From a virus: a stretch of DNA of 28,874 bases. Location: positions 1 through 28,874 of the IMG/VR virus record IMGVR_UViG_3300017756_000072; one strand, 5' to 3'. This document shows, one piece after another, positions 481 through 28,688 of the stretch; positions within the stretch are counted from its first letter, which is position 1; each line of letters begins with the position of its first letter. Under the pieces are notes generated by a model. The model had not been told where the DNA came from, made no database searches, and worked only from the letters and a program-made list of their open reading frames with translations. Position numbers and translations under genes: made by a program.

Positions 481-1260
481 ATGAAGATTTTCATTGACTC
501 CGCTGACGTATGGGCAATTAAAGACGCATACGAAACAGGTCTTATTGATGGTGTAACAACCAACCCTACCCTTATAATGAAGAGTGGCAGACACCCAGAA
601 CAGGTGTATCAAAAACTCAAAGACATAGGAATCAGTGATATCTCTATGGAAGTCGTAGGCAATGCCGAAGCTATGATCTCTGAAGGTCGTAGACTAAAAG
701 CAAAGTTTGGTGACTGTGCTACAATCAAGGTTCCGTGTACACCAGACGGACTCCTTGCTTGTAACATTCTTTCAAAAGAATTAATTAGAGTTAACGTAAC
801 ATTAATATTCAGTACAGCACAAGCAATCCTAGCAGCAAAGGCAGGGGCAGCATATGTCTCACCTTTTGTTGGTCGACTAGAAGACAACTCTCACTCAGGT
901 GTAGAAGTTGTTCGTTCTATAGTTGATATCTACAAGAAACATGGTATCCATACTGAGGTATTGGCAGCATCTATTCGTGACGTTGCTAAGGTTACACTCG
1001 CATTCTGGAACGGTGCTCATATTTGTACCATACCACCAAGTGTATTCGAGAAGATGTACAACCATGTGTTAACAGACGCAGGATTAAAAATCTTCGATGA
1101 AGACCACAAAACCACCTTCTCTAACGAAAGAGTCGGTGGCGATATGGATGCTCTAGGTGATGCTCTGGGTTATGATTTTCCATCATTCACGGACGATGGA
1201 TTTACTTATACTATTGATCCAGGCGATTTACCTGACACAGGAATAGGATTTGTTCCTTAG
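481..1260 (+). CDS. talC: Transaldolase, small TalC/FSA-like type, with C-terminal extension
   Basis: This is a 259-residue class I aldolase-type TIM barrel of the short transaldolase (TalC, fructose-6-phosphate aldolase-like) family found in many cyanophages. Visible landmarks are FIDSADVWAI at the N terminus, GVTTNPTL at 24-31, the Schiff-base lysine K83 in TIKVPCT, AGAAYVSPFVGRLED and EVLAASIRD. In the family, transaldolase moves a three-carbon dihydroxyacetone unit in the pentose phosphate pathway; in infected cyanobacteria it is thought to steer carbon toward NADPH and ribose for phage DNA. The barrel appears to end near residue 212 (GLKIFDEDHK). The last 45 or so residues are an extra tail not expected in TalC (usually about 215-220 aa). 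The gene sits two bases after gene 32, and its stop overlaps the stop of the convergent gene 53. Confidence 0.92.
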   Translation: MKIFIDSADVWAIKDAYETGLIDGVTTNPTLIMKSGRHPEQVYQKLKDIGISDISMEVVGNAEAMISEGRRLKAKFGDCATIKVPCTPDGLLACNILSKELIRVNVTLIFSTAQAILAAKAGAAYVSPFVGRLEDNSHSGVEVVRSIVDIYKKHGIHTEVLAASIRDVAKVTLAFWNGAHICTIPPSVFEKMYNHVLTDAGLKIFDEDHKTTFSNERVGGDMDALGDALGYDFPSFTDDGFTYTIDPGDLPDTGIGFVP

Positions 1261-5359: not shown

Positions 5360-5527
5360 GCAAGATTCTATCAAACGAATTTCGCCTTGGTGCAACACCA
5401 TAAATATACTCTGAGTGACATAGAAAATATGATCCCTTGGGAGCGTGACATTTACGTCAATATGCTTGCTAAGTGGTTAAAGGATGAGAGAGATCGTATA
5501 GAAAAGGAACGTCAAAAACGTAAGTAA
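5333..5527 (+). CDS. 51: gp51-like tail hub assembly segment, translated as -1 frameshift extension of gp26
   Basis: The 64 codons carry a convincing protein segment: FQEGLARFYQTNFALVQHH, then KYTLSDIENMIPWERDIYV, then a charged helix rich in Lys, Glu and Arg. The pattern (short helix, 'tL.dIe.m.pwErd.y' motif, charged helix) is typical of small gp51-like or tail-assembly-chaperone ORFs beside gp26 in T4-like phages. There is no ATG before the middle of the motif, and the frame is closed upstream by a stop at 5324-5326, so it cannot start independently in a normal way. The TTG at 5387 or GTG at 5390 would lose the first helix and have no ribosome binding site nearby. The stop TAA overlaps the next ATG by one base (TAATG). 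T4 gp51 is larger and separate. Confidence 0.78.
   Translation, partial: RVALFQEGLARFYQTNFALVQHHKYTLSDIENMIPWERDIYVNMLAKWLKDERDRIEKERQKRK
5399..5406 (+). promoter_or_regulatory. Possible late promoter core CATAAATA inside the gp51-like segment
   Basis: This eight-base core is identical to the two divergent late promoters and lies 120 bases upstream of the tape-measure-like gene. It also encodes His-Lys-Tyr of the gp51-like motif, so it may be coincidental. Confidence 0.3.
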
Positions 5528-7560
5528 TGAACACTCGTCTATCTAAAATCTTTGGGGTTAAGATCTTACCTGTTGCGGGTAAGGTAACTTCTACAGCCAA
5601 GGAGATGTTAGATACTGAGATGGAGTACATCGAGTATCTCAGGAATAGAAGGAAGTTCTTCTTTATGACTCAGGTACAACAGACCAGAGTTACAGTAAGA
5701 GGTAAGTCACAGAAGGAAGAGGAGAAGAAAAAGAAGAAACGTAGAGGTGGTGGTGTATTAGACACCTTAAACAAGGCAAGGAAGATAAAGAGGGCACTTG
5801 GTAATAAGAAATTAAATAAGAAGACTAAACTTGGTAGGTTTAGGCGTAACCTGAGAGCTGGTGGTCTTAAACTAAACAGGAAGGTGCAGCGTTCTCCATT
5901 TGGTAGAGCAAAGAAATTTGTCGGTGGAATAGGTAAAAAGATTGGCGGTAAGGTCAAGGGTGTAAAGAAAGCAGCTCTTGATAAGGTAGTAACAGCACCT
6001 GCAGCATTAAAGAAGAATATAAGTAACCTGATACCTAAGTCTGCTAAGAAGAAGGTAGCCCAGAAATTAGTAAAGACAGCAACGAAGAAGGGACTACAGA
6101 AGGCGGGTGCTAAGGTAGGAGCGAAACTTGCTGCCAAGACAGCAGTCAAGATAGGATTGAAGAAGATACCAGTTATAGGTCTCATAGCTGGACTAGGGTT
6201 TGGAGCACAAAGATTACTGGCAGGGGATGTCCAAGGTGCCCTTATGGAAGCGGGATCAGGTATAGCATCTACAATACCAGGTCCAGGTACTGCTATATCA
6301 GCAGGAATAGATGCTGCTCTGATCGCTAAAGATGTCACGGGTATGAAAGACGGGGGTGAAGTTAGTTCACCTACACAAGCACTGATCGCTGAGGGTGGTG
6401 AACCTGAACTCGTTGTACCACACTCTAAGTTAGGTCCTGTTTTCCGAAGTCTATTAAGTAATGTTGGTAACATACTAACAGATGTCACTACAGGGTTCTT
6501 GTCTACATTACCTGTACCAACATCAGAATCCTCAAGGATATTGGGTGAGACAGCAAAGATAGCAGCAGTGTTTGGACAGAAAGGCAAACCTATATCAGTG
6601 TTCAAGGGTGGTAAGATAGCAAAACTGGCAGGAGGATTCCTGAAGAAGATGGCTGGTGGTGCCATGGGTCTTGCTAAGGGAGCATTCGGGATGACACCCA
6701 TAGGCATGGCAATGGGTATGCTTAGTAGACCAGCTAGGGCAGATGGTAAAAAATTAAAATTTAGAAAAAGAACAGTAAAGAATACGATATCTGATGTCAA
6801 TGGTGTGATGACTTCATCATCATGGGATTCAGACACTGCTACGTCAATAGCAAACTTCCCAATTACTGATAAGTATGGATCAACAGAAGGAAGACAAAGA
6901 CCTCATGGTGGTGTGGACATAGGAACTCCCGTAGGCACACCCGTAGGATTTACTGAGCCAGGTGAGATATTAGCAGCTGGTGAGTATGGTGGATATGGAA
7001 ACATGATGGATGTCTGGTTACCAGCTGCCAAAATACAGATGCGTATAGCACACTTAAGTAAGTTTGTTAAGAAAACTGGTGAGTTTATGGCAGGAGAGAA
7101 ACTTGCTGAAACTGGTGGAGCAGTCGGTGATCCTGGCTCAGGTAGTTCTACAGGACCACACCTTCACTTTGAGGCAGATAACAAGAAAGACTCAACTAGA
7201 TATGGTGGGGCAGGAGACCCATTGCCTTATGCACCACTGATCAACTTGAGTGCAGTCGAACCACCATCAGGAGGTGCGACAGGTAAAGGCGGTGCATCCT
7301 ATGGGTTCCCACTAACTAACACAGTCAAGTGGCCAACCAGTGGTGGTTCTATGGGAGGTCCTGGTCTTCTATCTGGCATAGGTAACATGGTGGGATCTAT
7401 CCTTGGTGGTAGGACAAAGATTGAATATGTTCCTTTCCCTGTACCTGTGGTAAAACCTTTCCCAGTTCCCGTCACTAAAATTGTGACAGTAACGGAGAAG
7501 GATGTGAAAGCATACGGTATAGATCCTTTCTCTGGTAAATATGGTGTACTAAATGGATAA
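5527..7560 (+). CDS. Tape-measure-like tail/hub protein with M23 peptidase domain
   Basis: The protein is 677 residues long. The first ~180 residues are very Lys/Arg-rich. A Gly/Ala-rich hydrophobic stretch follows (about 215-275). Around 276-300 is GGEVSSPTQALIAEGGEPEL then VVPHS, a motif common near the ends of tape measure proteins. Residues ~445-560 form an M23 (LytM-like) metallopeptidase domain with H460-x3-D464, H509 and the H545-L-H547 pair, all expected zinc or catalytic residues. A C-terminal Pro/Val repeat (about 635-650) ends it. It directly follows the gp26/gp51 unit, where lambda-like phages keep the tape measure. It probably sets tail length and may cut host peptidoglycan during DNA injection; equivalence to T4 gp29 is inferred. 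Confidence 0.72.
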   Translation: MNTRLSKIFGVKILPVAGKVTSTAKEMLDTEMEYIEYLRNRRKFFFMTQVQQTRVTVRGKSQKEEEKKKKKRRGGGVLDTLNKARKIKRALGNKKLNKKTKLGRFRRNLRAGGLKLNRKVQRSPFGRAKKFVGGIGKKIGGKVKGVKKAALDKVVTAPAALKKNISNLIPKSAKKKVAQKLVKTATKKGLQKAGAKVGAKLAAKTAVKIGLKKIPVIGLIAGLGFGAQRLLAGDVQGALMEAGSGIASTIPGPGTAISAGIDAALIAKDVTGMKDGGEVSSPTQALIAEGGEPELVVPHSKLGPVFRSLLSNVGNILTDVTTGFLSTLPVPTSESSRILGETAKIAAVFGQKGKPISVFKGGKIAKLAGGFLKKMAGGAMGLAKGAFGMTPIGMAMGMLSRPARADGKKLKFRKRTVKNTISDVNGVMTSSSWDSDTATSIANFPITDKYGSTEGRQRPHGGVDIGTPVGTPVGFTEPGEILAAGEYGGYGNMMDVWLPAAKIQMRIAHLSKFVKKTGEFMAGEKLAETGGAVGDPGSGSSTGPHLHFEADNKKDSTRYGGAGDPLPYAPLINLSAVEPPSGGATGKGGASYGFPLTNTVKWPTSGGSMGGPGLLSGIGNMVGSILGGRTKIEYVPFPVPVVKPFPVPVTKIVTVTEKDVKAYGIDPFSGKYGVLNG

Positions 7561-9127
7561 ATTTCCTTCAATAGACAATGTACATGAGGTACTAAGTGAT
7601 CTTAATGGGTTGTTCGAGGATCGTAACGCCCTGTTGAACGCTATGTTCAAAGAGGATAAGTACAAAGAATTTTTATTGGCAGAAAATATACAGAGTCTTG
7701 TTGAAGCAGATAAGAGAGATGACTCAGCTGGTGGAAAAATTAAGAGAGACCTAGCAGATGGATATGAGGTATTAAAAGCACAGACTACCATGAGGAAGTT
7801 TGCTAACTTTATCTCACCTGGTTCACTACAAACACTTGACTTAAGTGATTCTAGTGACTTTGAGGAACCTGAAGTAGACGAGGAAGAAGAAGAAGTTGTA
7901 GAGGAAAAAGAAGAGAAGCAAGAACCAGAGAAGGGAGAGAAAGGTGACAAGGGTGATCCTGGCGAAACAACTCTTAAGGTGGATGCACCAAAGACGACAT
8001 CTCCATTCCCATTCATAGCTGACGGTGGTGCTACATCACAGAAAGCTAGGATGGCACTGAAAGAGGGTGGTGCTGTTACACCGTCTCCTATGCAGAACTT
8101 CCTGAACAAGGGAGCACAGAGACCTGAAACAAAATCAGGTGTCAAGTCACTAGAGAGCTTAGGACTGGTAGGTAAGAAGAACGTTGCCAGTGAACTGACT
8201 AAAGATTTAGGACTAGATGAGTATAAAAAAGCACTAGCAGATGCGATGGCACTACCACTCAAGGCAGTGGCAGCAGGATTAGCAGGATTGTTGGACAACC
8301 TTGATGTACCAGGTGGTGAGGGTGCAGCGGTTGAAGGACAGGTAGCTAAGGTAGGAAAGACATTTGGTGTAAAAACTAAGAAGAAGAAGAAAAAGAAAGA
8401 AAGTGGATTTGGAAACTTTGTACAGGGTGGTGGTATAGTCGGTGCCTTGGGTAGAATGTTTGGTGGTGGTAAGAAGAAGAAAAAGAAGCAGCAGACAGAA
8501 GAAGGATTTATGGCAGAAGCAGATGCGTACGAAGCTGAGGTTCAGAGGATGGTTGATCCCTATGGTTCAGATGAAACCATGGAAGATTATGCTCCACAGG
8601 GAGGTCCATCACTTGTAAGGAGTGCACCTGGTTACTTAGGTATTGGTGGTGCTTCACATCCAAAACTAGCACCTGACACGTTGTCAACTCGTGGTGATAC
8701 TAAGATTGATGCTATGAAGAATTCTATTCGCAATATCACACAGGGTGCGAAGAATATGTTTATGAACTCTAAAGCAGTTACTCAGGTTAAAGCTGCTACG
8801 GGATTTGTAAGTAAACTTCTAGGTGGAATACAACCAGCTAGTAAGGGTAGTCAATACAACAACCAAAATATTAATGAACTTACTGAGAAGGTCACCCTTG
8901 TAAATGAATCAAGAATGGCTCAGAAAACTAAGTTTCCTATGGGTTATAATCCTAGCGAACCTGATACAACAGAAGCTATGTTGAGGGAGATGGCAGCGAT
9001 TAGAATCAATGGCATGGGTATTGATGAATCAGATTCATTACCTCCTGCACCACTCAAGGTTAGTAAGTACTTAGTCGCTAGTATAACCTCAACACATGGA
9101 GGGGAGACACCTCAAGACATATTATGA
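7553..9127 (+). CDS. Low-complexity baseplate hub / tail structural protein
   Basis: I do not recognise a definite family for this 524-residue protein. It starts with a helical region (1-90). Then come an acidic stretch rich in Glu (about 104-127), a short collagen-like GEKGDKGDPGET (about 129-140), a GG-rich segment with ADGGATSQKARMALKEGGAV, two poly-lysine runs (about 275 and 305) and a more ordered C terminus with NNQNINELTEKVTLV. Its ATG lies in the last eight bases of the M23 gene and its stop overlaps the gene 27 start (ATGA), placing it firmly in the hub operon. By position (between the tape-measure-like gene and gene 27) it could replace T4 gp28 or part of gp29. Disorder suggests a flexible protein packed inside the tube or hub. 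Confidence 0.6.
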   Translation: MDKFPSIDNVHEVLSDLNGLFEDRNALLNAMFKEDKYKEFLLAENIQSLVEADKRDDSAGGKIKRDLADGYEVLKAQTTMRKFANFISPGSLQTLDLSDSSDFEEPEVDEEEEEVVEEKEEKQEPEKGEKGDKGDPGETTLKVDAPKTTSPFPFIADGGATSQKARMALKEGGAVTPSPMQNFLNKGAQRPETKSGVKSLESLGLVGKKNVASELTKDLGLDEYKKALADAMALPLKAVAAGLAGLLDNLDVPGGEGAAVEGQVAKVGKTFGVKTKKKKKKKESGFGNFVQGGGIVGALGRMFGGGKKKKKKQQTEEGFMAEADAYEAEVQRMVDPYGSDETMEDYAPQGGPSLVRSAPGYLGIGGASHPKLAPDTLSTRGDTKIDAMKNSIRNITQGAKNMFMNSKAVTQVKAATGFVSKLLGGIQPASKGSQYNNQNINELTEKVTLVNESRMAQKTKFPMGYNPSEPDTTEAMLREMAAIRINGMGIDESDSLPPAPLKVSKYLVASITSTHGGETPQDIL

Positions 9128-16967: not shown

Positions 16968-17385
16968 AGAATTTTTAGAGTGGTTTGAAGGAGACTTTAA
17001 CAACTGGGGACAGGCATCCAGTTGGCCATCTTACTATGCTCATGTACTGTTGACACATGAGAGGACAGAGGGTAATAAGTTCCTATCACACCAGAGATAT
17101 AAGTATAATAATAAAGAGTATAGACGTAAGGAGATAGAGATAGTAGAGAGAAATGGAGAGATCATAGCACTCAACCCAGTAGCAGATATACACTTCCTCA
17201 AGGACGGTGACATGTATGTTGGACGTAACTTTAAAAAGGTGTGGGTTAACGAAGGATACCTCAGATCTGAGGCAATATTGGAGAAAGATAAGTACACAGT
17301 GGTGGACAGAGGATACGATGAAGAGGGAAAACAGACATGGGGCAGTCGTTACGGACCATTTGTCTTCGATAAGACGTATAAATAA
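16960..17385 (+). CDS. cpeT: CpeT-like phycobiliprotein lyase
   Basis: The 141-residue protein resembles cyanophage CpeT-like proteins: EEFLEWFEGDFNNWGQASSW followed by YAHVLLTHERTEG, then FLSHQRYKY and YRRKEIEIVERNGEIIAL. The C terminus, VVDRGYDEEGKQTWGSRYGP followed by FVF, matches the closing strands of the lipocalin-like CpcT/CpeT barrel. In cyanobacteria these lyases attach bilins to phycobiliproteins; phage versions may bind or handle bilins to alter light harvesting during infection. It is shorter than host CpeT (about 200 aa), as phage copies often are. Its last codons overlap the late promoter TATAAATA, so it closes the accessory cassette. Confidence 0.72.
   Translation: MLEEFLEWFEGDFNNWGQASSWPSYYAHVLLTHERTEGNKFLSHQRYKYNNKEYRRKEIEIVERNGEIIALNPVADIHFLKDGDMYVGRNFKKVWVNEGYLRSEAILEKDKYTVVDRGYDEEGKQTWGSRYGPFVFDKTYK
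17377..17384 (+). promoter_or_regulatory. Perfect T4-type late promoter TATAAATA for the tail fibre block
   Basis: The eight-base sequence equals the T4 late consensus. It overlaps the end of the CpeT-like gene and lies 27 bases upstream of the GTG start of the first fibre gene, similar to the spacing seen at the other late promoters in the window (26 bases). Confidence 0.8.
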
Positions 17386-17411: not shown

Positions 17412-19175
17412 GTGGCAACTCGTAAGATATCAGACCTAACTCTACTGACAACAGTATCACCTTCAGATACCCTTCTGTTACTTGATAACTCAGACCCAGT
17501 AGATACTAATAAAAAGACGGAAGTAGGATCCATATTCAAGGCTGTGCCTGGTGGATCACAGAACCAGCCTGGTCTAGCATTTGACCAGAAGACAGCGACT
17601 GGTTTATATTCAACAACTCAAGGTGAACTGGGCATATCACTCGGTGACTCCAAACTATTACTTGAGAAGCAATCTACTTCACTTGTATTATCTGCTAGAG
17701 ACTCAGCAGACTCTAACTTAGACCTGACACTACAGGCACTAGGTACTGGTCTGATTAGATTCAACTCTACCATTGCTATCAATGACTCTGTATTTACTGT
17801 ACCTAACAGTTCAGACAACAGTAAGATAATAAAATTTTCTGCCACACAACTACCCACAGGGACAACTAGGACATTTGTTTTCCCTGACGCAGGAGTTGAG
17901 ACTGATACTCTCGTAACTGTATCATCAACGCAGACACTTACCAGTAAGACACTTGTATCACCTATATTCACAGGTGACTTGACAGGTGTTAACCTTACAT
18001 TATCTGGTAACTTACAGGTTGATGGTAACAGCACACTAGGATCAGACAATAACGATACAGTTACAGTCGCAGCGGTATCTACGTTCAACGCTAACCTTAC
18101 AGCAAACAACCCAGTAACAATAAACGCAGCGACAACCTCGACTGATGACATAACTATCAATCAGACGAGTGGTACTGGGACATATAAAAAGTTAAAGTTT
18201 TTTGATACAAGTCAGGACACCAACGCAGGAAGAGACGTAGCAGACCTAGCAGTCTCTACTGATTCAGCGTCAAGAGTTCTTGACTTACAGTATTATGATA
18301 GAGATACAGACTACGCATCTACCAATTACACATATGGTATTAGAGTAGCGAGTATCGCATATACTATGCCTGATGTAACAGTCAACATCGTTAACGGTGC
18401 TGTAGATAGTTTCACTATCACAAATGCAGGTGCCAATATATCACAGGGAATGACAGCAGTCATACTTGGTGATGGTTCCGATGCTGTCGTAACTCCTGTA
18501 GTAATCAATGGTGCTCTAGCATCTGTTACTATCAACGCAGGGGGACAAGACTACACTGCTGCTACTATTCAGTTCACAACCTCTGGTGGTGGACTACAGT
18601 ACAGGACATATGACCATGCTAATACCACACAGACAAGTAACGAGATTATCCACACAGGTAACCTTAACTTGATCAGTGAGATTGGTTCAGTCAGTAACTT
18701 AATTACAACTGGATCAGTCAACTTTGATAACGGTACATTCATATTGGATGATACAAATGATCGTGTAGGTATAGGTATCACTCCTAGTGCATATAAGCTC
18801 GAAGTCGGAGGAGATATATACTTTACAGGTGGTCAATTAATTGGTGGTGACTCATCATCATTTGTACTTCAGAGGAGACTAGATGCTACTCCAATGAGGT
18901 TCAACAAATTTGATGGTACCACTGAGATGATTATTGACTCAGATGGTCAGGTGGGTATCAACAAGACTCCTGCTAAACGATTTGATGTCTCAGGTGATAG
19001 TAATGTAGATGGAGACTTCTATGTTACTGAAACAGATTCAGTCAACCAGATCGGTGGTGCAGTGTATGCTAAACGATTAAAGTTAACTGACCTCAATGGT
19101 GCAGTCCAAACAATTACTGCTGACACAATCTCTGCTACTAGCAGAACAAAAGTTATTTTCCACGCTTACTCTTAA
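17412..19175 (+). CDS. Tail fibre-like virion structural protein (587 aa)
   Basis: The start is GTG, with AGGGA five bases upstream; the protein opens ATRKISDLTLLTTVSPSDTL, a common first segment of phage fibre proteins. Short beta repeats follow, including TLTSKTLVSPIFTGDLTGVN (about 176-195) and a sequence rich in Thr, Ser and Asn typical of fibrous shafts. Residues about 331-386 contain a paired 'itnaG...vtInaGGqDYt' unit like the GxGY repeats in gp5. The C-terminal part has FDNGTFILDDTNDRVGIGIT and VGINKTPAKRFDVSGDSN, resembling intramolecular-chaperone-adjacent fibre repeats ('VGIGTtpp..LdV.Gd'). It is the first gene after the late promoter. It is probably a fibre or baseplate decoration; exact T4 equivalence is not clear. 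Confidence 0.7.
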   Translation: MATRKISDLTLLTTVSPSDTLLLLDNSDPVDTNKKTEVGSIFKAVPGGSQNQPGLAFDQKTATGLYSTTQGELGISLGDSKLLLEKQSTSLVLSARDSADSNLDLTLQALGTGLIRFNSTIAINDSVFTVPNSSDNSKIIKFSATQLPTGTTRTFVFPDAGVETDTLVTVSSTQTLTSKTLVSPIFTGDLTGVNLTLSGNLQVDGNSTLGSDNNDTVTVAAVSTFNANLTANNPVTINAATTSTDDITINQTSGTGTYKKLKFFDTSQDTNAGRDVADLAVSTDSASRVLDLQYYDRDTDYASTNYTYGIRVASIAYTMPDVTVNIVNGAVDSFTITNAGANISQGMTAVILGDGSDAVVTPVVINGALASVTINAGGQDYTAATIQFTTSGGGLQYRTYDHANTTQTSNEIIHTGNLNLISEIGSVSNLITTGSVNFDNGTFILDDTNDRVGIGITPSAYKLEVGGDIYFTGGQLIGGDSSSFVLQRRLDATPMRFNKFDGTTEMIIDSDGQVGINKTPAKRFDVSGDSNVDGDFYVTETDSVNQIGGAVYAKRLKLTDLNGAVQTITADTISATSRTKVIFHAYS

Positions 19176-19181
19176 AATTCA

Positions 19182-20171
19182 ATGGCAAATGGTGTACTAG
19201 CGTCATATCAGTCCGCTACAACAAAATATACTAATGCATATGTGGAACCCGCTACTAATCCTAACGGGCTAGTACGTGCTGATTTCCCTATGTACACAAC
19301 TCCTAGTGCTACACTCACAAGTGGTTCACTCAGGATGATGAATACGACTGGTGCTACAGCAACCGTAGACGTTGCTATTCAAGATTATACAGAACAGATT
19401 GAGTTTGCTGTTCCTGGCTCACAGAGTCCTACAGTATCAAACTTCTCGGAGTTTAGTTTTGTACCTAACTCAAAGGTAACATCTTCATATGTTATTATCT
19501 CAGGTCACAACGGTACAGCATATGTACCTGGCGAAGTGTTGACTGTTACTGGTGGACCTGCGGGTACACAGACAGCAAAGTGCATCGCATGGGACGCTGC
19601 TAACCTCAAGGTGTGGTATGAACAACCCGCAGGGTCATGGCCAACAACTATTGCTTCAATGACACTAGCAGGAGCTGGTGGTGGAAGTGGTACTATTACT
19701 GATTCATATGTAGGAACCAGTGGTAGAGTCATATTCTATGACAGACTACAGGGTCAGTTATTGATACAGAATGATACTGTAATCAATAATCTCAAGTCAT
19801 TATATTATACAGAACCAGCTAACCAAATGGTATCTGGTATCGGTGGAGCAGGACAACTATCAATCTCATCAAGAGGTTATGAGTGGTTACCTTCACTAGC
19901 AACAGTGAAATTATATAATAGTGGGCAAAATGGTGCCACTGTGACTGCTGAGTGGAAGCAGAACGAGGGTAGTCAACCAGAGGTTATTATCTCAGGTGTA
20001 TCCTATAGTAATGATCAGAACAAGATCTTAAAATCATATCCAATTCCAAACAATTCTGAAGTGAGTTTGACAGGTCTGGTACTTGAACAGTGGCAGAATC
20101 TATATGTAAGTGCGTCAGCTGGCGTAGCATTTAATTTTATAGGATTTGAAGAAAGCGTAACTATTAGTTAA
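19182..20171 (+). CDS. Virion structural protein (329 aa), fibre block
   Basis: This beta-rich, Ser/Thr/Gly-rich protein begins ANGVLASYQSATTKYTNAYV. It contains TATVDVAIQDYTEQIEFAVP, a GHNGTAYVPGEVLTVTGGPA unit resembling the GxGY virion repeats, and YEWLPSLATVKLYNSGQNGA. The C terminus is compact (VSLTGLVLEQWQNLYVSASA followed by GVAFNFIGFEE), typical of a beta-sandwich that sits on a fibre or sheath. I know no specific function. It lies six bases after the preceding fibre gene and four before the giant fibre gene, clearly in one late transcript. Confidence 0.62.
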   Translation: MANGVLASYQSATTKYTNAYVEPATNPNGLVRADFPMYTTPSATLTSGSLRMMNTTGATATVDVAIQDYTEQIEFAVPGSQSPTVSNFSEFSFVPNSKVTSSYVIISGHNGTAYVPGEVLTVTGGPAGTQTAKCIAWDAANLKVWYEQPAGSWPTTIASMTLAGAGGGSGTITDSYVGTSGRVIFYDRLQGQLLIQNDTVINNLKSLYYTEPANQMVSGIGGAGQLSISSRGYEWLPSLATVKLYNSGQNGATVTAEWKQNEGSQPEVIISGVSYSNDQNKILKSYPIPNNSEVSLTGLVLEQWQNLYVSASAGVAFNFIGFEESVTIS

Positions 20172-20175
20172 TTAA

Positions 20176-23100
20176 ATGGCACTAACAAGACTAAAGAATG
20201 TCTTTACCTCGAAGACAGGCCGTTGTATCTACGTCAACCCAGACGATTTTGATGCATCGGATTCTTTTGATAATAGAGGTAATAGTCCTAACAGACCATT
20301 CAAGTCAATACAAAGAGCACTGGTTGAGTCAGCACGATTCTCATATCGTACTGGACAGTTCAACGATGCTTTCGAGTCATTTACTATAGTATTATATCCC
20401 TCTGAATATGTACTGGACAACAGACCAGGCACAAATACCACAGGGCAAGCATTTATAGACGACGATATACCCATATTAAACTCTAGTTCTGATTTAGATT
20501 TACAGAACTCAGATGGTACACCTAACCCAGACAACTTACTCTATAAGTTCAACTCAGTAGAAGGTGGTATCATCATCCCAAGAGGTACATCCCTCGTGGG
20601 TATGGATCTTAGAAAGACCAAACTAAAACCATTATATATTCCTGATCCAGAATCAGGATCAATCGAAAGATCAGCAATATTCAGAGTTACTGGTGGATGT
20701 TATTTCTGGCAGTTCTCATTCTTTGATGGTCCTAAAACTGGTGTGTACACAGACCCAGCTCAACCAACAGCATCTACACCTCCAACTTACTCTCACCACA
20801 AATTGTGTTGCTTTGAGTATGCTGATGGTAAAAATGTTTTGAGCAGTGTTAATGACACATCTGGTAACGCTCTTACTATCACTGACCTAGATCTATACTA
20901 TCAGAAAGTAGCAAGAGCATTTGATGATATCCCTGACACTACTGGTGTAACCTCAGCAGATGAGTTCCAGAAGAGAGTCGAGGAGAACAGAATTGTAGGT
21001 CCTAATACCTCAGGTCCTATTACTATCAGTAGTATAGTCACTGACTATATCAACAGTGGTGTGTATACTACAACAGCAGAGGTAACAACAACAACCCCTC
21101 ATGGATTTTCTAACGGAACCCCAGTTCAAATCGAAGGTGTCTCAGGGTCTGTGGCTAGTAGATTTAACGGTTCATATTTTATTACAGAAGTACCAACCAC
21201 AACGACCTTCCGATACATAATAAAGAACCCTAATCAGGCTGCTCCTGCTAACAACCCAACTGCTACTGGTTCTACAGTACGAGTTGAGATTGATAACGTT
21301 GACTCAGCGTCACCATACATATTCAACATATCCCTACGTTCAACATGGGGTACATGTGGTATGCATGCTGATGGTGCTAAGGCAACTGGATTCAAATCTA
21401 TGGTTGTTGCTCAGTTCACTGGAGTATCACTGCAGAAGGATGACAACGCATTCATCAAATGGGATGGATCAACTTATATTCAAGGTAATCATACAGATGG
21501 CGACAGTATATACAGACCGACGTACCGAAACTTCCACGTTAAGTGCTCTAACGATGCAGTTATTCAGGCAGTTTCTGTTTTCGCTGTTGGTTTTGCTGAT
21601 CATTTCGTTGCCCTTAGCGGTGGCGACCAGTCAATTACAAACTCTAACTCTAACTTCGGATCGTGCTCTCTAAGAGCGAAGGGATTTAAGAACCTACCGT
21701 TCACACAGGATAAGGCTGGTAAGGTCACACATATCATTCCTCCTAAGAAACTAACGAGGACATATGCATTAATAAATGGATACACATTCACTACTCAGCT
21801 GAACAATAGGACAGTCACGTCCTCTCCTGCTAACAACACTCATGGACTGGTTGCTGATCAATTCATACGTATTGGTGCTGAGGATGCAGTAGAATCATAT
21901 CAGATTTCAAGCGTAGCAAGTGATGGCACACTGACACTCAACAGAGGATATCGTGGTACAGCTGGTTCATACTCAGTGTATGGCGGTACGATTGATGAGA
22001 TACCAGTTGGTTACATAGCACTTGACGTACAGAAGATAAAATATAATAGTAGTAGAACAGTGGGTACAGGTAAACCCACATGGAACACCTCAACAACAAT
22101 TCCAGCTAACACAAGTGTAGTATATGGTGGTAAAGCGTATTATACTGTTAATGGTGGTACTACTGGCTCTACTCCTCCCACATGGAGCACCGCACCTCTT
22201 GCCAGATCTGACGGTGGAGTCACATGGTCATACATTGGAGATGTAGACACAAGATTATATCTCTATGGATATAACTCAGAAGCAACTAAACCTCCATACA
22301 AACTACAGGGTTATAACCTTGGTGCACGTATCAATGACGTATTATATGTTTCATTGATCAATGGTTCTACACCTCAGACATACTATGCTAATATCACACC
22401 AACAGGATCACAGACTGTAGCTGATGTACATTTCACTAACATCACTACACAGCAGTTCGTACCTGGTGACCCTAATCACCCACTACAGTACGATAGCGAA
22501 CTCAACTGTTGGTATGTAAGAATTACTTCAGCAACAAGTAGCAACACAAGTTATGGTGTACACTATCACTTAGGTAACGAAGCATTCTACGATACATCAC
22601 TATTCACTGGTGCATCATATATGATGAGGATACCTGACAACAGGTCATCTAGAGACAGAACATATCGTATGAGATATGTGGTAGACAGCTCAGTTCTATC
22701 AAGAGACCCAATCAACGGTTATATTATTCAACCACGTAACGTTGCTACTGGTCAGTCATACGAAAAAGTATATTATATCTACGATATTGAGAAGGTACAG
22801 ACACTACAGTCAGGTGCACAGAATGGTATTTACTATCTAACCATGTTAAATGGTAAGATCAGTCCATCCAACGGTAACCTCAGTAACTTTGCGTTCTCTC
22901 AGAATATCAACAACCTATATCCTCAGTTAGATAAGGATAACCCAACTGAAGATCCACTCAAGGCAACATCAATAGCATCTAATACTATTGTTGGACTTGT
23001 TACTACCAGTGATGATACTGGAGCTGAAGCACTTGATCGCTCAATCACACGTGAGGTTGTATCTGACTACATCCTAGAGCAGAAGAATAACTACACAAAC

Positions 23101-24699
23101 TATGCATCAGCTGACCCAGCCAGTGCTAACTTCATCACACTAGAAGCACGTGATGGTGATGCAGAGGAAATAAACCTAGCACTAAGGATGATACCACTGA
23201 ACAGTACAGGTGGTACAGACCTAGAGGTTAGACGACCTAGTATCTTAAGATCAGGTAACCACACATTTGAATACGTTGGTTTCGGACCAGGTAACTATTC
23301 AACTGGTCTACCTTCAGTACAGAACAGAGTTCTTACAAGTGATGAGATACTACTAGCACAGTCACAGAAGGAAGAAGGTGGTATCGCATTCTACTCTGGA
23401 TTGAACAGTAACGGTGACCTATTCATAGGTAACACCAAGATCAGTTCAGTTACAGGTGAGGAAGAATCACTAGACACTCCAGTGTTATCAGTTGTTGGTG
23501 AGACAGCAAACTTACGTCCTACATTTGATGAGATAATCGTCAGGGATAAGATAACTATTGAGAGTAATACTCTAACAACAGAATTTAAAGGTAAGTTCCT
23601 TGTACAGGGTGAGACTACAGTTAATGATAGAATCACGTGTGCTGACATCACAGTCGGTAAAACAGGTGAGTCAAGTAAAAACATTGACGTTGTAGGATCA
23701 TCGCCTGGTTCTGGATCAGCAAACGATGGTGACTGGAAACTATTAGAACTACCTACACGTGGTACCTATCTAGGATGGTACTGGGATGGTAACTATTGGG
23801 TCAAGCAAGGATTAACAGACACAGGTAATATTAGAATTACAGGTGGAGCAGGTAACTCTGACGCAACAGGTGACATTCAACTCGTGAATGGGTTAGGCAT
23901 TGACATACAGTCAACTGGTACACTGACAGTGGGCACAGGTGCTACAACACTAGGTGGTACACTAGCAGTAACCAATCAGGCTACATTCTCGAATGACGTG
24001 GCAGTATATGGTGGTGACATCACAACTAACCAGAGTACATTCAACCTAATCAATACTACAGCAACCACACTACGCATAGGTGGAGCAGCAACCAACGTAT
24101 CAATCGGTGCTAGCAGTGGTACTACAACCATTAACAATGAACTATCATTGAGTGGTGACTTTACTATTGGTGGTGGTGACCTCACAGTCGGATCAACAAA
24201 TGTTATTTCAGACAGTGGTGGTACATGTTCATTAAAAGGTATTGATAGTATAGACTCTACGACTGAAGCGACTATCGAGAGTGCTATAGATACATTAAGC
24301 AACTTGACATCAGCCAGTTCTTTGAGTACAGTAGGTACTATTGGAACAGGTTCATGGCAAGGTAGTATAATTAACAGGACATATGGTGGTACAGGTCTAA
24401 ACACCTCATCCATATCTAATGGTCAGTTACTTATAGGTTCATCAAGTGGATTCGCACTAGCAAATATTAGTGCGGGTAATGGTATCAGTGTTACTAATGG
24501 TACAAATAGTATACAAATAGCAAACACTGGTGTAAGATCACTAGCAGTCAGCAACCAAGGTTCAAGTATCAGTCTTAACGCAAGCACAGGTACATTGACA
24601 CTAACAATAGGATCAGGATCCAACGCATACGGATCAAGAACAGTCTCTACTAACAACCCTAGTGGTGGTAGTAACGGAGACGTATGGTACAGATATTAA
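20176..24699 (+). CDS. Large tail fibre-like protein with beta-helix regions (1507 aa)
   Basis: This is the longest gene in the window. The N terminus (ALTRLKNVFTSKTGRCIYVN, then GNSPNRPFKSIQRALVESAR) resembles the start of pectate-lyase-type right-handed beta-helix proteins ('DGs..NPF.tIq.Al'), followed by IIPRGTSLVGMDLRKTKLKP and a long beta-rich body. From about residue 1250 to 1340 come short fibre repeats (TTLGGTLAVTNQATFSND, NTTATTLRIGGAATNVSIGA). YGGTGLNTSS and NGISVTNGTNSIQIANTG follow, and the end motif is GGSNGDVWYRY. These features match the large fibre/structural proteins of cyanomyoviruses. It probably forms a receptor-facing fibre or collar. The adhesin-like gene three bases downstream may sit on its tip. 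Confidence 0.75.
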   Translation: MALTRLKNVFTSKTGRCIYVNPDDFDASDSFDNRGNSPNRPFKSIQRALVESARFSYRTGQFNDAFESFTIVLYPSEYVLDNRPGTNTTGQAFIDDDIPILNSSSDLDLQNSDGTPNPDNLLYKFNSVEGGIIIPRGTSLVGMDLRKTKLKPLYIPDPESGSIERSAIFRVTGGCYFWQFSFFDGPKTGVYTDPAQPTASTPPTYSHHKLCCFEYADGKNVLSSVNDTSGNALTITDLDLYYQKVARAFDDIPDTTGVTSADEFQKRVEENRIVGPNTSGPITISSIVTDYINSGVYTTTAEVTTTTPHGFSNGTPVQIEGVSGSVASRFNGSYFITEVPTTTTFRYIIKNPNQAAPANNPTATGSTVRVEIDNVDSASPYIFNISLRSTWGTCGMHADGAKATGFKSMVVAQFTGVSLQKDDNAFIKWDGSTYIQGNHTDGDSIYRPTYRNFHVKCSNDAVIQAVSVFAVGFADHFVALSGGDQSITNSNSNFGSCSLRAKGFKNLPFTQDKAGKVTHIIPPKKLTRTYALINGYTFTTQLNNRTVTSSPANNTHGLVADQFIRIGAEDAVESYQISSVASDGTLTLNRGYRGTAGSYSVYGGTIDEIPVGYIALDVQKIKYNSSRTVGTGKPTWNTSTTIPANTSVVYGGKAYYTVNGGTTGSTPPTWSTAPLARSDGGVTWSYIGDVDTRLYLYGYNSEATKPPYKLQGYNLGARINDVLYVSLINGSTPQTYYANITPTGSQTVADVHFTNITTQQFVPGDPNHPLQYDSELNCWYVRITSATSSNTSYGVHYHLGNEAFYDTSLFTGASYMMRIPDNRSSRDRTYRMRYVVDSSVLSRDPINGYIIQPRNVATGQSYEKVYYIYDIEKVQTLQSGAQNGIYYLTMLNGKISPSNGNLSNFAFSQNINNLYPQLDKDNPTEDPLKATSIASNTIVGLVTTSDDTGAEALDRSITREVVSDYILEQKNNYTNYASADPASANFITLEARDGDAEEINLALRMIPLNSTGGTDLEVRRPSILRSGNHTFEYVGFGPGNYSTGLPSVQNRVLTSDEILLAQSQKEEGGIAFYSGLNSNGDLFIGNTKISSVTGEEESLDTPVLSVVGETANLRPTFDEIIVRDKITIESNTLTTEFKGKFLVQGETTVNDRITCADITVGKTGESSKNIDVVGSSPGSGSANDGDWKLLELPTRGTYLGWYWDGNYWVKQGLTDTGNIRITGGAGNSDATGDIQLVNGLGIDIQSTGTLTVGTGATTLGGTLAVTNQATFSNDVAVYGGDITTNQSTFNLINTTATTLRIGGAATNVSIGASSGTTTINNELSLSGDFTIGGGDLTVGSTNVISDSGGTCSLKGIDSIDSTTEATIESAIDTLSNLTSASSLSTVGTIGTGSWQGSIINRTYGGTGLNTSSISNGQLLIGSSSGFALANISAGNGISVTNGTNSIQIANTGVRSLAVSNQGSSISLNASTGTLTLTIGSGSNAYGSRTVSTNNPSGGSNGDVWYRY

Positions 24700-24702
24700 A
24701 TT

Positions 24703-25623
24703 ATGGCATTACCTTATGATGCAGGGATAGCGAACTACCTCAGTCCTACTCTGCACTCACGTACAAAATCTGGTGGCACATGGCGATGGGTCGACCAACT
24801 ATCGGTCAGACACAGTGGTTCATGGCGTACAGTCAAACAAGCATATGTTAAATCTGGTGGTTCATGGCGTAAGTATCATGATGCAGAGAATGTATTTACA
24901 TTCTATGTCACTCTAGATGGTACACGTACCTCCACATTTAATTTAAACACATGGTTAACTACCAGTGGGTATCAGTCACCATCACTCAGTCGTACATATA
25001 ATAATGGCGATAGAATACGTGGTGTGATACACGTCACAGGTAAACAGGGTGGTAATCCTGGCATTAACATAGGTAACTTTGGTAGTGACTCACGTGTGTA
25101 TATCAAAGTCAACAGTAATTGTAGAATCGCAGGATATGGTGGTAATGGTGGTAACATAGGTAGTGGTGGACAGTCAGCTGGCACAGCATTATATACTCGC
25201 ACAGGTGTGTTCATTGAGAACAATGGACAGATGTGGGGAGGCGGTGGAGGTGGCCGTGGTGGTAACAATGGACAGTGTGTAGGAACATATTATTACAACT
25301 ATAACTGCGGTAAGAACTGCTACAGACAGGGAACTGGTTACAACTACAACCCTGCATCAGGTGGTGGAGGTGGCGGTGGAGCTGGTATCCCTGCTGGCTC
25401 TGGCAGACAGCGTGGTAACAATGGTAGTTACAACTCAGGTGGTAACGGTGGATCAGGAAATGGATGCGGATCCAATGCAGGTGGTAAGGGTGGAAATCCT
25501 GGTCAGAATGCATCAGGTGGTAACTCAGGTTCCAACGGTAACAGTGGGAACTATATAGATGGAGCGTCCTATGTATACTCATGGGTCAGCACAGGAGACC
25601 GTAGGGGTCGTTCATCAGGATAA
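24703..25623 (+). CDS. Glycine-rich tail fibre tip adhesin, gp38-like
   Basis: The 306-residue protein starts with three SG(G/S)(T/S)WR units (W at 27, 41 and 55, exactly 14 apart), a repeat I associate with cyanophage fibre-tip proteins. A beta region then leads to VYIKVNSNCRIAGYGGNGGN (about 132-151) and VFIENNGQMWGGGGGGRGG (about 169-187). Several glycine runs follow to about residue 283. This order ('v.g..m.GyGGnGG', then 'i.NnG.m.GGGGGGgG') matches T2/S16-type gp38 adhesins, in which glycine-rich motifs fold into a polyglycine-II sandwich and the loops between them contact the receptor. Loops with paired Cys (NCGKNC, GNGCGSN) may be disulphide-linked. It is likely a main host-range determinant. 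Confidence 0.78.
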   Translation: MALPYDAGIANYLSPTLHSRTKSGGTWRWVDQLSVRHSGSWRTVKQAYVKSGGSWRKYHDAENVFTFYVTLDGTRTSTFNLNTWLTTSGYQSPSLSRTYNNGDRIRGVIHVTGKQGGNPGINIGNFGSDSRVYIKVNSNCRIAGYGGNGGNIGSGGQSAGTALYTRTGVFIENNGQMWGGGGGGRGGNNGQCVGTYYYNYNCGKNCYRQGTGYNYNPASGGGGGGGAGIPAGSGRQRGNNGSYNSGGNGGSGNGCGSNAGGKGGNPGQNASGGNSGSNGNSGNYIDGASYVYSWVSTGDRRGRSSG

Positions 25624-25625
25624 CA

Positions 25626-26087
25626 ATGGCACAATCAGAACTAACACAAGAACCTCAGTTTAAAGTATACGGTGCAGACTCTGTAAAGTTTACTGTCACT
25701 GAGGTAGACGACACAACAAAACAGATCATAGTATCAGTTAACTGCAGTGAGCTCACAACTCAACCAGATGATATTATTATTGATGCATGGAATCTCAATG
25801 CTACTGAACCAGTGAGGTTACAGATAGCAAAACTTGTATTCGATGCAGTATTATTACAGAAGAATCTAGAGTCAGACAGCTCAACACAGATGACATCATG
25901 TAATACTATCAGGTCACAGGAACAGACAGTCACTGCAACCGAGTTAGAGTCACATCTAACAGAGATGCACAAACAGACTGCTAATCATTTTGATCCACTA
26001 CTCACAGAGACTAGGATCACAACTATATTCCACGAAGATGACTTCGACTTCCAATTTGAAAACTTAATGAAAGAGTTGAATAGCTAA
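25626..26087 (+). CDS. Hypothetical protein (153 aa), fibre block
   Basis: I do not recognise this protein. The N-terminal half is beta-rich (FKVYGADSVKFTVTEVDDTT, IIVSVNCSELTTQ); the C-terminal half is helical and polar (QEQTVTATELESHLTEMHKQ) and ends in an acidic segment DDFDFQFENLMKELNS. It starts two bases after the gp38-like adhesin, and its stop overlaps the next ATG (TAATG). Position suggests a fibre-related or chaperone role, but nothing in the sequence proves it. Confidence 0.58.
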   Translation: MAQSELTQEPQFKVYGADSVKFTVTEVDDTTKQIIVSVNCSELTTQPDDIIIDAWNLNATEPVRLQIAKLVFDAVLLQKNLESDSSTQMTSCNTIRSQEQTVTATELESHLTEMHKQTANHFDPLLTETRITTIFHEDDFDFQFENLMKELNS

Positions 26088-26848
26088 TGTATGATATCAG
26101 TGAGAACAAATCATATGACATAGCAGCCTATGGGTTCGGTAAGAAGACTGAGCAGCATGGGTTTGAGATATTGTCATGTGTCTCAGCACGTGAAGGTAAG
26201 AAAATATTTGGTAATGACCCTGATATTACAGAGGTGAAACCAGACTTTGACTTGTTAGCTGACTGGATAACCAAGAACCCTAGTGGTAAGGTGGCAGCAG
26301 CAGAGACATTGCTACGTAAGTATGGTTATGATGAGGCTACAGTGCATCACAGGACAGTATTATTCACATCACAGTGGAGAACAGATGCATTAAATATGCC
26401 TGACCATAGTCTGTTATATCATGCAGGAGCATACTCACAGTTTAAAATGCCAGGTGTATGTAGACTGACCTCAGTCGTGAAGGATGGATCCTCAGTGTGC
26501 GTCGGACCTATGGATGCTAAGAATTATCAGAGGAAAGTATATAAGTTTGAGACAAGTGGTAGATTTAAACCAGAGACAGAAGGAAGTATCATAGTACCAA
26601 CAGAGGACTGTTATGTTCAAGGGTTCCTACTCAAGAGACACATGGCATTCAAGTGCACTGTGACTGACTGGCAATCATTCAATGTAACTAAACCAACATG
26701 GTTGATAGAGTTCACAACTACTGAAGTTGATCCCGTTGCTACGGGCAGACAGTGGTTACAACAGTTCGAGGATGGGCTCATTGAGTTTGTAGATAGAGTA
26801 CCTAAAGAGTATAAGTACAGTAACGACAAAGGATTATATGTTGAGTGA
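26087..26848 (+). CDS. Hypothetical protein, upstream member of tandem paralogous pair (253 aa)
   Basis: The function is not recognised. Residues 88-141, HRTVLFTSQWRTDALN followed by LLYHAGAYSQFKMPGVCRLT and then SVCVGP, clearly parallel residues 74-127 of the next gene. The shared core is 'hR.lLF.S..........LlY.AGAY..FKM.G..RLT.......S.(V/I)C(V/I)GP', followed by a segment 'R.V.k......' and 'I(I)VPTEDCYVQG' versus 'VLVATQDMWYDG'. The protein looks beta-rich and could be a small virion decoration or receptor-binding module. Translation is coupled to both neighbours (TAATG upstream, 11-base overlap downstream). Confidence 0.6.
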   Translation: MYDISENKSYDIAAYGFGKKTEQHGFEILSCVSAREGKKIFGNDPDITEVKPDFDLLADWITKNPSGKVAAAETLLRKYGYDEATVHHRTVLFTSQWRTDALNMPDHSLLYHAGAYSQFKMPGVCRLTSVVKDGSSVCVGPMDAKNYQRKVYKFETSGRFKPETEGSIIVPTEDCYVQGFLLKRHMAFKCTVTDWQSFNVTKPTWLIEFTTTEVDPVATGRQWLQQFEDGLIEFVDRVPKEYKYSNDKGLYVE

Positions 26849-27521
26849 CGCAGTGATCCAAGACTTCGGTCATGGTATTACAGTTTTATATTATAACAAC
26901 GTAAAGAAAGGATTCAAGTTCATCGGTGATGACCCTGAAGGTAAGGTCATACCTATTTCTGAGGATGTAAGAGAGAAAGTATATACAAAGACAGGCATAA
27001 CAGGATCAGATCCCAACGTACCAGCTAGAGCATACTTAGATAAGTTCTACCTACACAACAGGTGTCTGTTGTTTCCTAGTGGCATGTGGATGAGTGAGAC
27101 AGCAGGAGTACCACACACTCTCATGTATAAAGCAGGAGCATACTGTAACTTTAAGATGGCAGGGATGACTAGACTCACAGCACTGACAGATAATGCCAGT
27201 GCTATTTGTATAGGACCTGATCCTGGTCATGAGACCATAGGATACTATGCTCGGACAGTACACAAGATAGATGGAGATATATTATTTGACCGTACTGACA
27301 GAGTACTTGTCGCAACACAGGATATGTGGTATGATGGTGATATCATTACAGCAGGAAGACCATATCTAACTAAGCGTAAGGGTAAACTAAAGTTGCTAAA
27401 CGCAGGATATATGGTAGAATTCTGGTTAGATGATGTGAATATTGAGGAGTCAGTCACTGACTATATCAATATGTGGATCAACCATAACATAATATTAAAA
27501 GAACGACGTGCCAAGAATTAA
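26838..27521 (+). CDS. Hypothetical protein, downstream member of tandem paralogous pair (227 aa)
   Basis: It is homologous to the preceding gene through residues about 74-175: NRCLLFPSGMWMSETAG, LMYKAGAYCNFKMAGMTRLT, AICIGP and VLVATQDMWYDG. Its N terminus (DFGHGITVLYYNNVKKGFKF) is also roughly alignable with the N terminus of its partner (YGFGKKTEQHGFEIL). An old tandem duplication followed by strong divergence explains both genes. No known domain is recognised. The end overlaps the start of the next small gene by 14 bases. Confidence 0.6.
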   Translation: MLSDAVIQDFGHGITVLYYNNVKKGFKFIGDDPEGKVIPISEDVREKVYTKTGITGSDPNVPARAYLDKFYLHNRCLLFPSGMWMSETAGVPHTLMYKAGAYCNFKMAGMTRLTALTDNASAICIGPDPGHETIGYYARTVHKIDGDILFDRTDRVLVATQDMWYDGDIITAGRPYLTKRKGKLKLLNAGYMVEFWLDDVNIEESVTDYINMWINHNIILKERRAKN

Positions 27522-27762
27522 ACATAAGCACCTAAGCCGTGCTCAGTTTGAATTTTTACTAGATCATATGATGGAGACACTCCCTGAGCATGAACTCACA
27601 GAGTGGTTACAGTGGGTGTGGTCTATGAATGATGGAGACAGTAGTATCAGGGCTGGATCTGAGCAGGGATATCGTATGATGCAGTACGACAAGTCAAAGT
27701 TTGATGAGGAAGATGAAGAGTGCTACAGGTACACATGGACAGACGAGGATGAGATATGGTAG
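27508..27762 (+). CDS. Small acidic hypothetical protein (84 aa)
   Basis: The frame opens with GTG at 27508; a later ATG at residue 21 is possible, but the GTG retains the basic N-terminal segment PRIKHKHLSRAQFEFLLDHM. A helix (LPEHELTEWLQWVWSM) follows, and the C terminus is strongly acidic and aromatic (DKSKFDEEDEECYRYTWTDE). No family is recognised. It overlaps the methyltransferase start by seven bases, so it may be co-translated with it. Confidence 0.55.
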   Translation: MPRIKHKHLSRAQFEFLLDHMMETLPEHELTEWLQWVWSMNDGDSSIRAGSEQGYRMMQYDKSKFDEEDEECYRYTWTDEDEIW

Positions 27763-28688
27763 ATCTTATATTATTTGGTGACTGTAAGCAAACACTCAAA
27801 CAGTTCCCACGTGGCAGTGCTCAAATGTGTGTGACATCACCTCCTTACTATGGTCTACGTGACTATGGTGGTGAGGACGCACAGATAGGACAGGAGGACA
27901 CACCAGATGAGTTTGTTAACAACCTAGTAGAAGTATTTCGTGAGGTACGTGATGTACTCGCAGATGATGGTGTACTATGGTTAAACATAGGAGACTCATA
28001 CTATAACTACAGACCTGGCAGTGGTGGACTACCTAAGCAAACAGTAAGCAAGACTAATCAAGACCTACCTACACAGTGTAACAGGAGAGCAAACAAGTTA
28101 GAAGGACTGAAAGAGAAAGACCTGATAGGTATACCATGGATGCTCGCGTTCGCATTGCGAGCAGATGGATGGTATCTACGTCAGGATATTATATGGCATA
28201 AACCTAATCCAATGCCAGAGTCAGTCAAGGACAGGTGTACCAAATCACATGAGTATATCTTTCTACTATCAAAGAACAAAAAGTATTATTATGACAACGA
28301 AGCAATCAAAGAACCAGTCAAGCAAGACTGGGGTAAACGAGATAGGACAAGCGGTAAGTACCATAATCCTGGCACTGGCCTTCAACCTCATAGTGGTCTT
28401 ACCAAGTCTTATGAACGGAAAAATAAACGAGATGTTTGGTCAGTAACAAATAAACCATACAAGGGAGCACACTTTGCTTGTTTCCCTCCTGATTTGATTG
28501 AACCATGTATACTAGCAGGGAGTAAGAAAGGAGATATAATACTGGATCCATTCATGGGATCAGGCACCACAGCAAGTGTGGCACTGAAACATGACAGACA
28601 CTACTATGGATGTGAACTACATGAAGACTATGGATCACTGATCCAAAAGAGAATTAAATCTGTACCTACCAAACTACCAATGCTGTGA
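27756..28688 (+). CDS. Site-specific DNA methyltransferase (N6-adenine or N4-cytosine type)
   Basis: The 310-residue enzyme has the amino-methyltransferase motif order with the catalytic TSPPY at 27-31 first, followed by YGLRDYGG. The SAM-binding motif DPFMGSGTT comes late, at 264-272. Between them are DVLADDGVLWLNIGDSYYNY, DIIWHKPNPMPESVKDR and YIFLLSKNKKYYYD, typical of this class. The order TSPPY then DPF..GsGT marks a beta-type (permuted) enzyme that methylates the exocyclic amine of adenine or cytosine. No restriction endonuclease lies next to it, so it is probably an orphan that protects phage DNA from host or phage nucleases. The recognition sequence cannot be read from the protein. 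Confidence 0.92.
   Translation: MVDLILFGDCKQTLKQFPRGSAQMCVTSPPYYGLRDYGGEDAQIGQEDTPDEFVNNLVEVFREVRDVLADDGVLWLNIGDSYYNYRPGSGGLPKQTVSKTNQDLPTQCNRRANKLEGLKEKDLIGIPWMLAFALRADGWYLRQDIIWHKPNPMPESVKDRCTKSHEYIFLLSKNKKYYYDNEAIKEPVKQDWGKRDRTSGKYHNPGTGLQPHSGLTKSYERKNKRDVWSVTNKPYKGAHFACFPPDLIEPCILAGSKKGDIILDPFMGSGTTASVALKHDRHYYGCELHEDYGSLIQKRIKSVPTKLPML

Follow-up and report, generated by a model that had tools for sequence, protein, structure and literature searches.

A tandem pair of paralogous genes with a predicted bicupin fold in the tail fibre block of a T4-like cyanophage fragment

Described relatives and layout of the fibre block

The closest described relatives of the two genes examined in this study, A and B, are found in Eurybiavirus, where the T4-GC 463 and 464 clusters (PHM1_034/035 in P-HM1, PHM2_037/038 in P-HM2 and CPMG_00080/00079 in MED4-213) hold orthologues with identities of 40-41% to A and 35-36% to B, in the same gene order and with an upstream p153 orthologue and the adhesin. 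These records name hypothetical proteins only and state neither paralogy nor fold, a search of open-licence papers for five locus tags returned no mention, and in the fibre block of the P-HM lineage only the fibre and the adhesin carry a functional annotation. A Gly-rich tip protein that has a partner protein of its own, as proposed here, is described for Pam3 gp24-gp25 and S16 gp38 in PMC9608196; Pam3 has one partner made of a beta-sandwich and a helical domain, whereas here there are two paralogous proteins, both predicted to be bicupins. Searches of open-licence papers yielded no earlier description of a bicupin fold in a fibre-tip complex or of paired bicupins within a fibre block. A cyanophage cupin report (PMC7824862) was considered as a precedent for fibre-block bicupins and set aside, as its accessible text concerns a different context. 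The cyanophage virion proteomes named in the accessible text of PMC3037559 are those of S-SM1, S-PM2 and Syn9, which lie outside this lineage, and neither Syn9 nor S-SM1, both represented in the phage collection, gave a match to A or B.

The DNA analysed, IMGVR_UViG_3300017756_000072 (the window, at its full length), is a 28,874-base IMG/VR virus fragment from a T4-like cyanophage whose kin are the Prochlorococcus phages P-HM1, P-HM2 and MED4-213. Its fibre gene shows 64-67% identity to those of P-HM1 and P-HM2, and the remaining genes include those for baseplate wedge, tube-cap, hub/lysozyme and tail proteins and a transaldolase. The block of interest (Table 1) has the fixed order fibre, Gly-rich adhesin, p153, A, B and p84, with intergenic gaps of +3 to -14 bases from the fibre through p84; the final base of p153 is also the first base of A. 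The Gly-rich protein matches its PHROG family, annotated 'tail fiber protein; host specificity', at 1.6e-8. An earlier reading made from the sequence alone (the sequence-only reading) had placed A and B next to the adhesin in the late block; the association with the fibre and adhesin block stands, but p153 separates the adhesin from A. Beyond p84 lies an N6/N4 DNA methyltransferase gene (Pfam PF01555, window 27756-28688) that overlaps p84 by 7 nt; in many relatives this gene is more distant or was not found within the sequence covered. The constant block stops at p84.

Table 1. Features of the gene run in the window
Feature	Position	Strand	Description
Late-promoter-like TATAAATA	17377..17384	+	resembles the T4-type late-promoter motif; ahead of the gene run
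587-aa protein	17412..19175	+	opens the gene run; PHROG 23851 'unknown function'; PHROG 692 'virion structural protein'
329-aa protein	19182..20171	+	PHROG 26421; upstream, within the same gene run
Tail fibre protein	20176..24699	+	1507 aa; PHROG 529
Gly-rich adhesin-like protein	24703..25623	+	306 aa; PHROG 2056
p153	25626..26087	+	153 aa; PHROG 27733; P-HM1 orthologue is T4-GC 462
Gene A	26087..26848	+	253 aa, predicted bicupin; orthologue PHM2_037/PHM1_034, T4-GC 463
Gene B	26838..27521	+	227 aa, predicted bicupin, paralogue of A; orthologue PHM2_038/PHM1_035, T4-GC 464
p84	27508..27762	+	84 aa, closes the block; PHROG 25880

Ahead of the gene run, the octamer TATAAATA at 17377, which we take to be a T4-type late-promoter motif, lies 35 bases 5' of the first gene. 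Of 81 loci (L001 and L020-L099), 20 include the start of this first gene, some of them near-copies, and all 20 carry the same motif at -35 to -37. Within the ensuing ~10.4 kb, NATAAATA is absent from 15 of these loci and occurs once in five. As approximately 3.5 matches to NATAAATA per window are expected by chance and 3 were seen, the evidence lies in the conserved position of the motif, and it is this position, kept in all 20 loci, that suggests one long late operon of eight genes. A and B are predicted to be expressed late; late genes of P-HM2 peak at 4.5 h, according to the accessible text of PMC5082946. When loci were collapsed into 91 distinct groups by comparing a portion of the A and B DNA, the first ATG or GTG of B overlapped the stop codon of A in 79 of them (by 4 nt in 69), and the translation of B is probably coupled to that of A. 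In the other 12 groups B starts 2 to 153 nt past the stop of A, two of them reaching 138 and 153 nt, which means that not all groups have tight coupling.

Paralogy, predicted fold and conserved residues

Both open reading frames were recovered where the sequence-only reading had placed them, as was the core it had described as shared (HHRTVLFTS..SLLYHAGAYSQFKMPGVCRLTSVVKDGSSVCVGP in A and HNRCLLFPS..TLMYKAGAYCNFKMAGMTRLTALTDNASAICIGP in B). A single blastp comparison gave 29% identity over 164 aa (E 2e-20), and the Smith-Waterman score of 184 compares with a mean of 31.5 and a maximum of 58 among 1000 shuffles. Profile-profile alignment with hhalign (41 A rows against 40 B rows) gave a probability of 99.85% and an E value of 1.2e-30 over 210 columns, spanning residues 24-240 of A and 12-226 of B. 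Both proteins match PHROG 16242 ('unknown function'), A at 2.3e-55 over positions 1-237 and B at 1.7e-38 over positions 12-218. The profile alignment and the PHROG 16242 matches together extend the homology beyond the core to approximately the whole protein. A and B are true paralogues, and the tandem duplication with divergence proposed earlier is borne out by blastp, hhalign and Smith-Waterman alike.

In a tree built from 41 sequences of A and 40 of B the two families fall on opposite sides of a 100/100 branch, at which, as the tree program warned, long branches meet; the family label changes once in 100% of 200 bootstrap trees. Identity between A and B is 25.6% within a locus (35 loci) and 25.8% between loci (1190 comparisons), and this equality gives no sign of gene conversion or homogenisation. 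A and B are the products of one ancient duplication, which, given this equality and the split in the tree, appears to predate the sampled lineage. A third paralogue was sought in the window and none was found, and no sequence repeat was detectable between the two cupin halves of A or B.

Single-chain AlphaFold2 models built from family-only alignments reached a mean pLDDT of 89.7 and a pTM of 0.85 for A, and 87.6 and 0.86 for B. In BFVD, the model of A matched one P-HM1 protein about as long as A (TMq 0.85) and one 221-aa P-HM2 protein about as long as B (TMq 0.75, 23% identity); the corresponding values for the model of B were 0.81 and 0.88, and the two viral proteins are taken as orthologues of A and B on the basis of length and identity. 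Some BFVD matches from rank 13 downward are named cupin or pirin. Among solved structures, the 50 PDB re-alignment rows listed for each model are, judging by their names, presumably all cupin-fold proteins. The top structural matches are PA5104 (1yll) and HutD (5fcc, 5v00), with Z 8.1-8.7 and rmsd 3.7-4.2 A over 151-156 residues, at an identity to A and B of only 9-13%; the scores (maximum 8.7, rmsd ~4 A) lie barely above the VIA-align background of Z = 7-8. PA5104 aligned with A at Z 8.7 (rmsd 3.8 A, 156 residues) and with B at Z 8.4 (rmsd 4.2 A, 155 residues), followed by HutD (8.1-8.2), YhhW (8.1) and BacB (8.0 with A, 7.8 with B). Foldseek returned 14 PDB matches for A at E <= 0.001, eight of them cupins and six cyclic-nucleotide-dependent kinases, with TM-scores of at most 0.37 among the matches listed. 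No solved structure was found by sequence with the A and B profiles at E <= 1. The bicupin assignment draws its support from two separate models returning the same list of cupin-fold proteins, and A and B are accordingly predicted to share one bicupin (double-barrel cupin) fold. Unrelated folds would have spoken against the duplication; the predicted folds are the same.

The pirin-like YhhW and BacB have the two-barrel cupin topology seen in the models of A and B (Z 7.8-8.1). Both bind metal, whereas strict canonical cupin motifs 1 (H-x-H...E...G) and 2 (P-x-G..H...N) occur in none of the 41 A rows and none of the 40 B rows. The H-x-H element alone is present in 11 A rows and nine B rows, with a following E in four B rows. 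Cupins without canonical metal motifs exist, so the absence of the motifs speaks against a classical metallo-cupin and not against the fold. At least 90% of members retain, among other residues, D44, D46, H87, R89, D100, R126, C138, R149, E208 and R237 in A, and the equivalent D32, E34, H73, R75, E87, R112, C124, R139, E194 and R223 in B. This polar set fits a site for binding or docking better than it fits a classical metal enzyme, and a non-classical metal site may be present.

Searches of family databases placed neither protein in a virion or tail family (PHROG, Pfam), and Pfam returned nothing convincing. The Pfam matches of the A members (41) and B members (40) included neither cupin models nor tail-assembly models of the Tfa/gp38 type, in searches where the HMMER filters drop most matches with E above ~0.1. 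Membership in the HutD/Ves family was rejected on sequence: the window has no PF05962 match at E <= 10, and hhalign against 38 HutD sequences gave probabilities of 1.2% for A and 0.2% for B. Against E. coli Ves alone, the two profiles align at the (F)PGxxR stretch with probabilities of 1.5% and 0.2%. In the fold comparison HutD is among the top structural matches (Z 8.1-8.7), tied with YhhW and BacB.

Constancy and divergence of the pair across loci

Five IMG/VR scans and three isolate records yielded 225 overlapping loci, several of which share a contig, with three of the scans covering the best 80 of 92, 80 of 97 and 80 of 100 relatives. A directly precedes B within the fetched stretch in 223 of the 225 loci, four of which hold one gene in part. 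The fetched stretches of the other two, L276 and L284, start 81 and 103 nt ahead of the frame of B; in their whole records A does precede B, nearly whole in one and as its last 33 codons, standing at the contig end, in the other. A, whole or partial, is thus immediately upstream of B in 225 of 225 loci. Homologues with only one of the two genes would have counted against a tandem pair, and no single-gene locus was found among the 225. The neighbouring genes are as constant. Every distinct group that extends far enough keeps them, which makes 78 groups for p153, 61 for the adhesin, 37 for the fibre and 88 for p84; the remaining 13, 30, 54 and 3 of the 91 groups, respectively, are too short to count. 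Both p153, which comes right after the adhesin, and p84 are small proteins of no known function, and neither is missing from any distinct group long enough to hold it.

In the phage collection, which may omit records very close to the window, the pair occurs in six records representing only three isolates (P-HM1, P-HM2 and MED4-213), and queries from the most divergent locus added matches only at E >= 0.5. All relatives found for A and B come from these three Prochlorococcus phage isolates or from IMG/VR contigs. The adhesin is found in the same three isolates as the pair, with three further weak matches in Rhizobium and Burkholderia phages; the fibre matches 461 records of the collection. One short peptide pattern searched against bacterial and archaeal species genomes gave 108 matches, of which none was a relative, and relatives without the pattern would escape this search. 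The fibre regions of Syn9, S-SM1 and P-SSM4 hold no above-chance relatives of A, B, p153, p84 or the adhesin, the best E value there being 0.014 on a 75-aa antisense frame.

Selection was estimated as pairwise, gene-wide Nei-Gojobori dN/dS for 11 pairs picked from the 18 rows of the distance analysis. Values range from 0.07 to 0.22 for A (10 of the 11 pairs, dS being saturated in one), from 0.07 to 0.38 for B (11 pairs) and from 0.10 to 0.52 for the adhesin (11 pairs). Purifying selection dominates in A and B. Against the close relatives L022-L024, the window shows 75-78% identity for B, 83-92% for A and 82-91% for the other genes of the block; in this clade B evolves faster than A, mostly through variable stretches around residues 35-64, 130-149 and 199-224.

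Across the 18 rows the protein distances of A and B correlate at r=0.96, and those of A and B with p153 or the 587-aa protein at r 0.94-0.96 (0.96 for A with the 587-aa protein); the A-B correlation is largely shared phylogeny. Correlations of A and B are lower with the adhesin (0.72-0.74), the fibre (0.73-0.75) and p84 (0.72-0.73), and the lower value for the fibre is a reason not to treat such correlations as proving that the pair partners the fibre. The adhesin has 43-45% identity (53% in a MAFFT alignment) in L025 and L026, where A has 74-76% and B 68-69%, whereas L027, L029 and L030 show 69-72% for the adhesin, 57-59% for A and 49-58% for B. These opposite patterns indicate that change in A and B is not tied to change in the adhesin. 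Around ~8455-9550 of L025 and L026 the adhesin is strongly diverged while the flanking fibre and A and B remain similar, which suggests that the tip protein was exchanged or changed rapidly in these loci.

Possible roles of the pair

There are several potential explanations for a conserved pair of this kind. Membership of the block alone is no proof of a tail role. The constant pairing of A and B beside the fibre genes, together with their shared predicted bicupin fold, points to what is probably a partnered fibre accessory, serving either as part of the virion or in its assembly, and we infer a tail-fibre location and a binding role for the two proteins. Adjacency, translational coupling and co-inheritance argue indirectly for an A-B complex that is probably heteromeric. 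The 'heteromeric pair' option of the sequence-only reading thus gained support (the genes are always adjacent, the start of B overlaps the stop of A in 79 of 91 groups, and their distances correlate at r=0.96); the fibre-tip or decoration role it also raised is possible. The explanation we tentatively prefer, while rating it at somewhat less than an even chance, is a late-made hetero-oligomer that serves the distal tail fibre and is likely a virion component at the tip or adhesin. The two paralogues would be made late from the tail-fibre operon and would assemble as subunits of a fixed hetero-oligomer serving the distal fibre; its most likely form would be a non-fibrous part of the virion that holds or caps the fibre tip or adhesin. 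A more specific proposal, that in T4-like cyanophages of the P-HM lineage the fibre-tip accessory is an obligate two-bicupin heteromer, lacking the classical metal motifs, capping or holding the Gly-rich adhesin together with p153 and p84, is more doubtful.

The virion accessory is favoured over two other roles, the nearer of which would make A and B chaperones that help to assemble the tail fibre or adhesin and do not stay in the finished virion, in the manner of T4 gp38 and Pam3 gp25. Their position just downstream of the fibre and adhesin genes, in the same late gene run, would suit such a role, and the cyanophage Pam3 offers a parallel in gp25, the chaperone of the Gly-rich fibre gp24, which went undetected in virions (accessible text of PMC9608196). 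However, the gp25 described in that text combines a beta-sandwich with a helical trimerisation domain and has no bicupin, tail-assembly models are absent from the Pfam matches of all 41 A and 40 B members, and p153, being nearer the adhesin, is by position the better candidate for a fibre chaperone. We therefore regard a chaperone role for A and B as rather unlikely. Slightly less likely again is that they are enzymes or binding proteins for a small molecule or sugar that merely ride in the late operon. The folds closest to the models belong to metabolic bicupins (HutD/PA5104, pirin, BacB and AerE), the polar residues H87, R89, D100 and E208 of A and H73, R75, E87 and E194 of B are kept in both families, and cupin sugar isomerases are described in cyanophage gene clusters in the accessible text of PMC7824862; yet A and B lack the strict canonical cupin metal motif and are conserved within the fibre block, not beside metabolic genes. 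The sequence-only reading had also suggested that the pair might be fibre-tip or decoration proteins that contact the receptor and diversify under receptor-driven selection. B is indeed the least conserved gene of the block against L022-L024 and has variable stretches, but dN/dS does not exceed 0.22 in A or 0.38 in B, so that selection of this kind is not supported at the gene level (the estimates are gene-wide, and selection may still act on a few sites), and change in A and B is not tied to that in the adhesin, as the contrast between L025/L026 and L027, L029 and L030 indicates. This last explanation is considered very improbable.

Prochlorococcus myoviruses are abundant, and p153, A, B and p84 form a four-protein set for tests of fibre assembly and host recognition, for which P-HM2 on MED4 provides a ready laboratory system for the block.

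Three further genes of the window lie in or near its baseplate region. A 524-aa open reading frame (window 7553-9127) in this region has no PHROG match at 1e-5, and a 677-aa open reading frame (window 5527-7560) near the baseplate hub genes matches endolysin and peptidase families. The transaldolase, an auxiliary metabolic gene, lies on the opposite strand (window 481-1260) and adjoins the baseplate genes.
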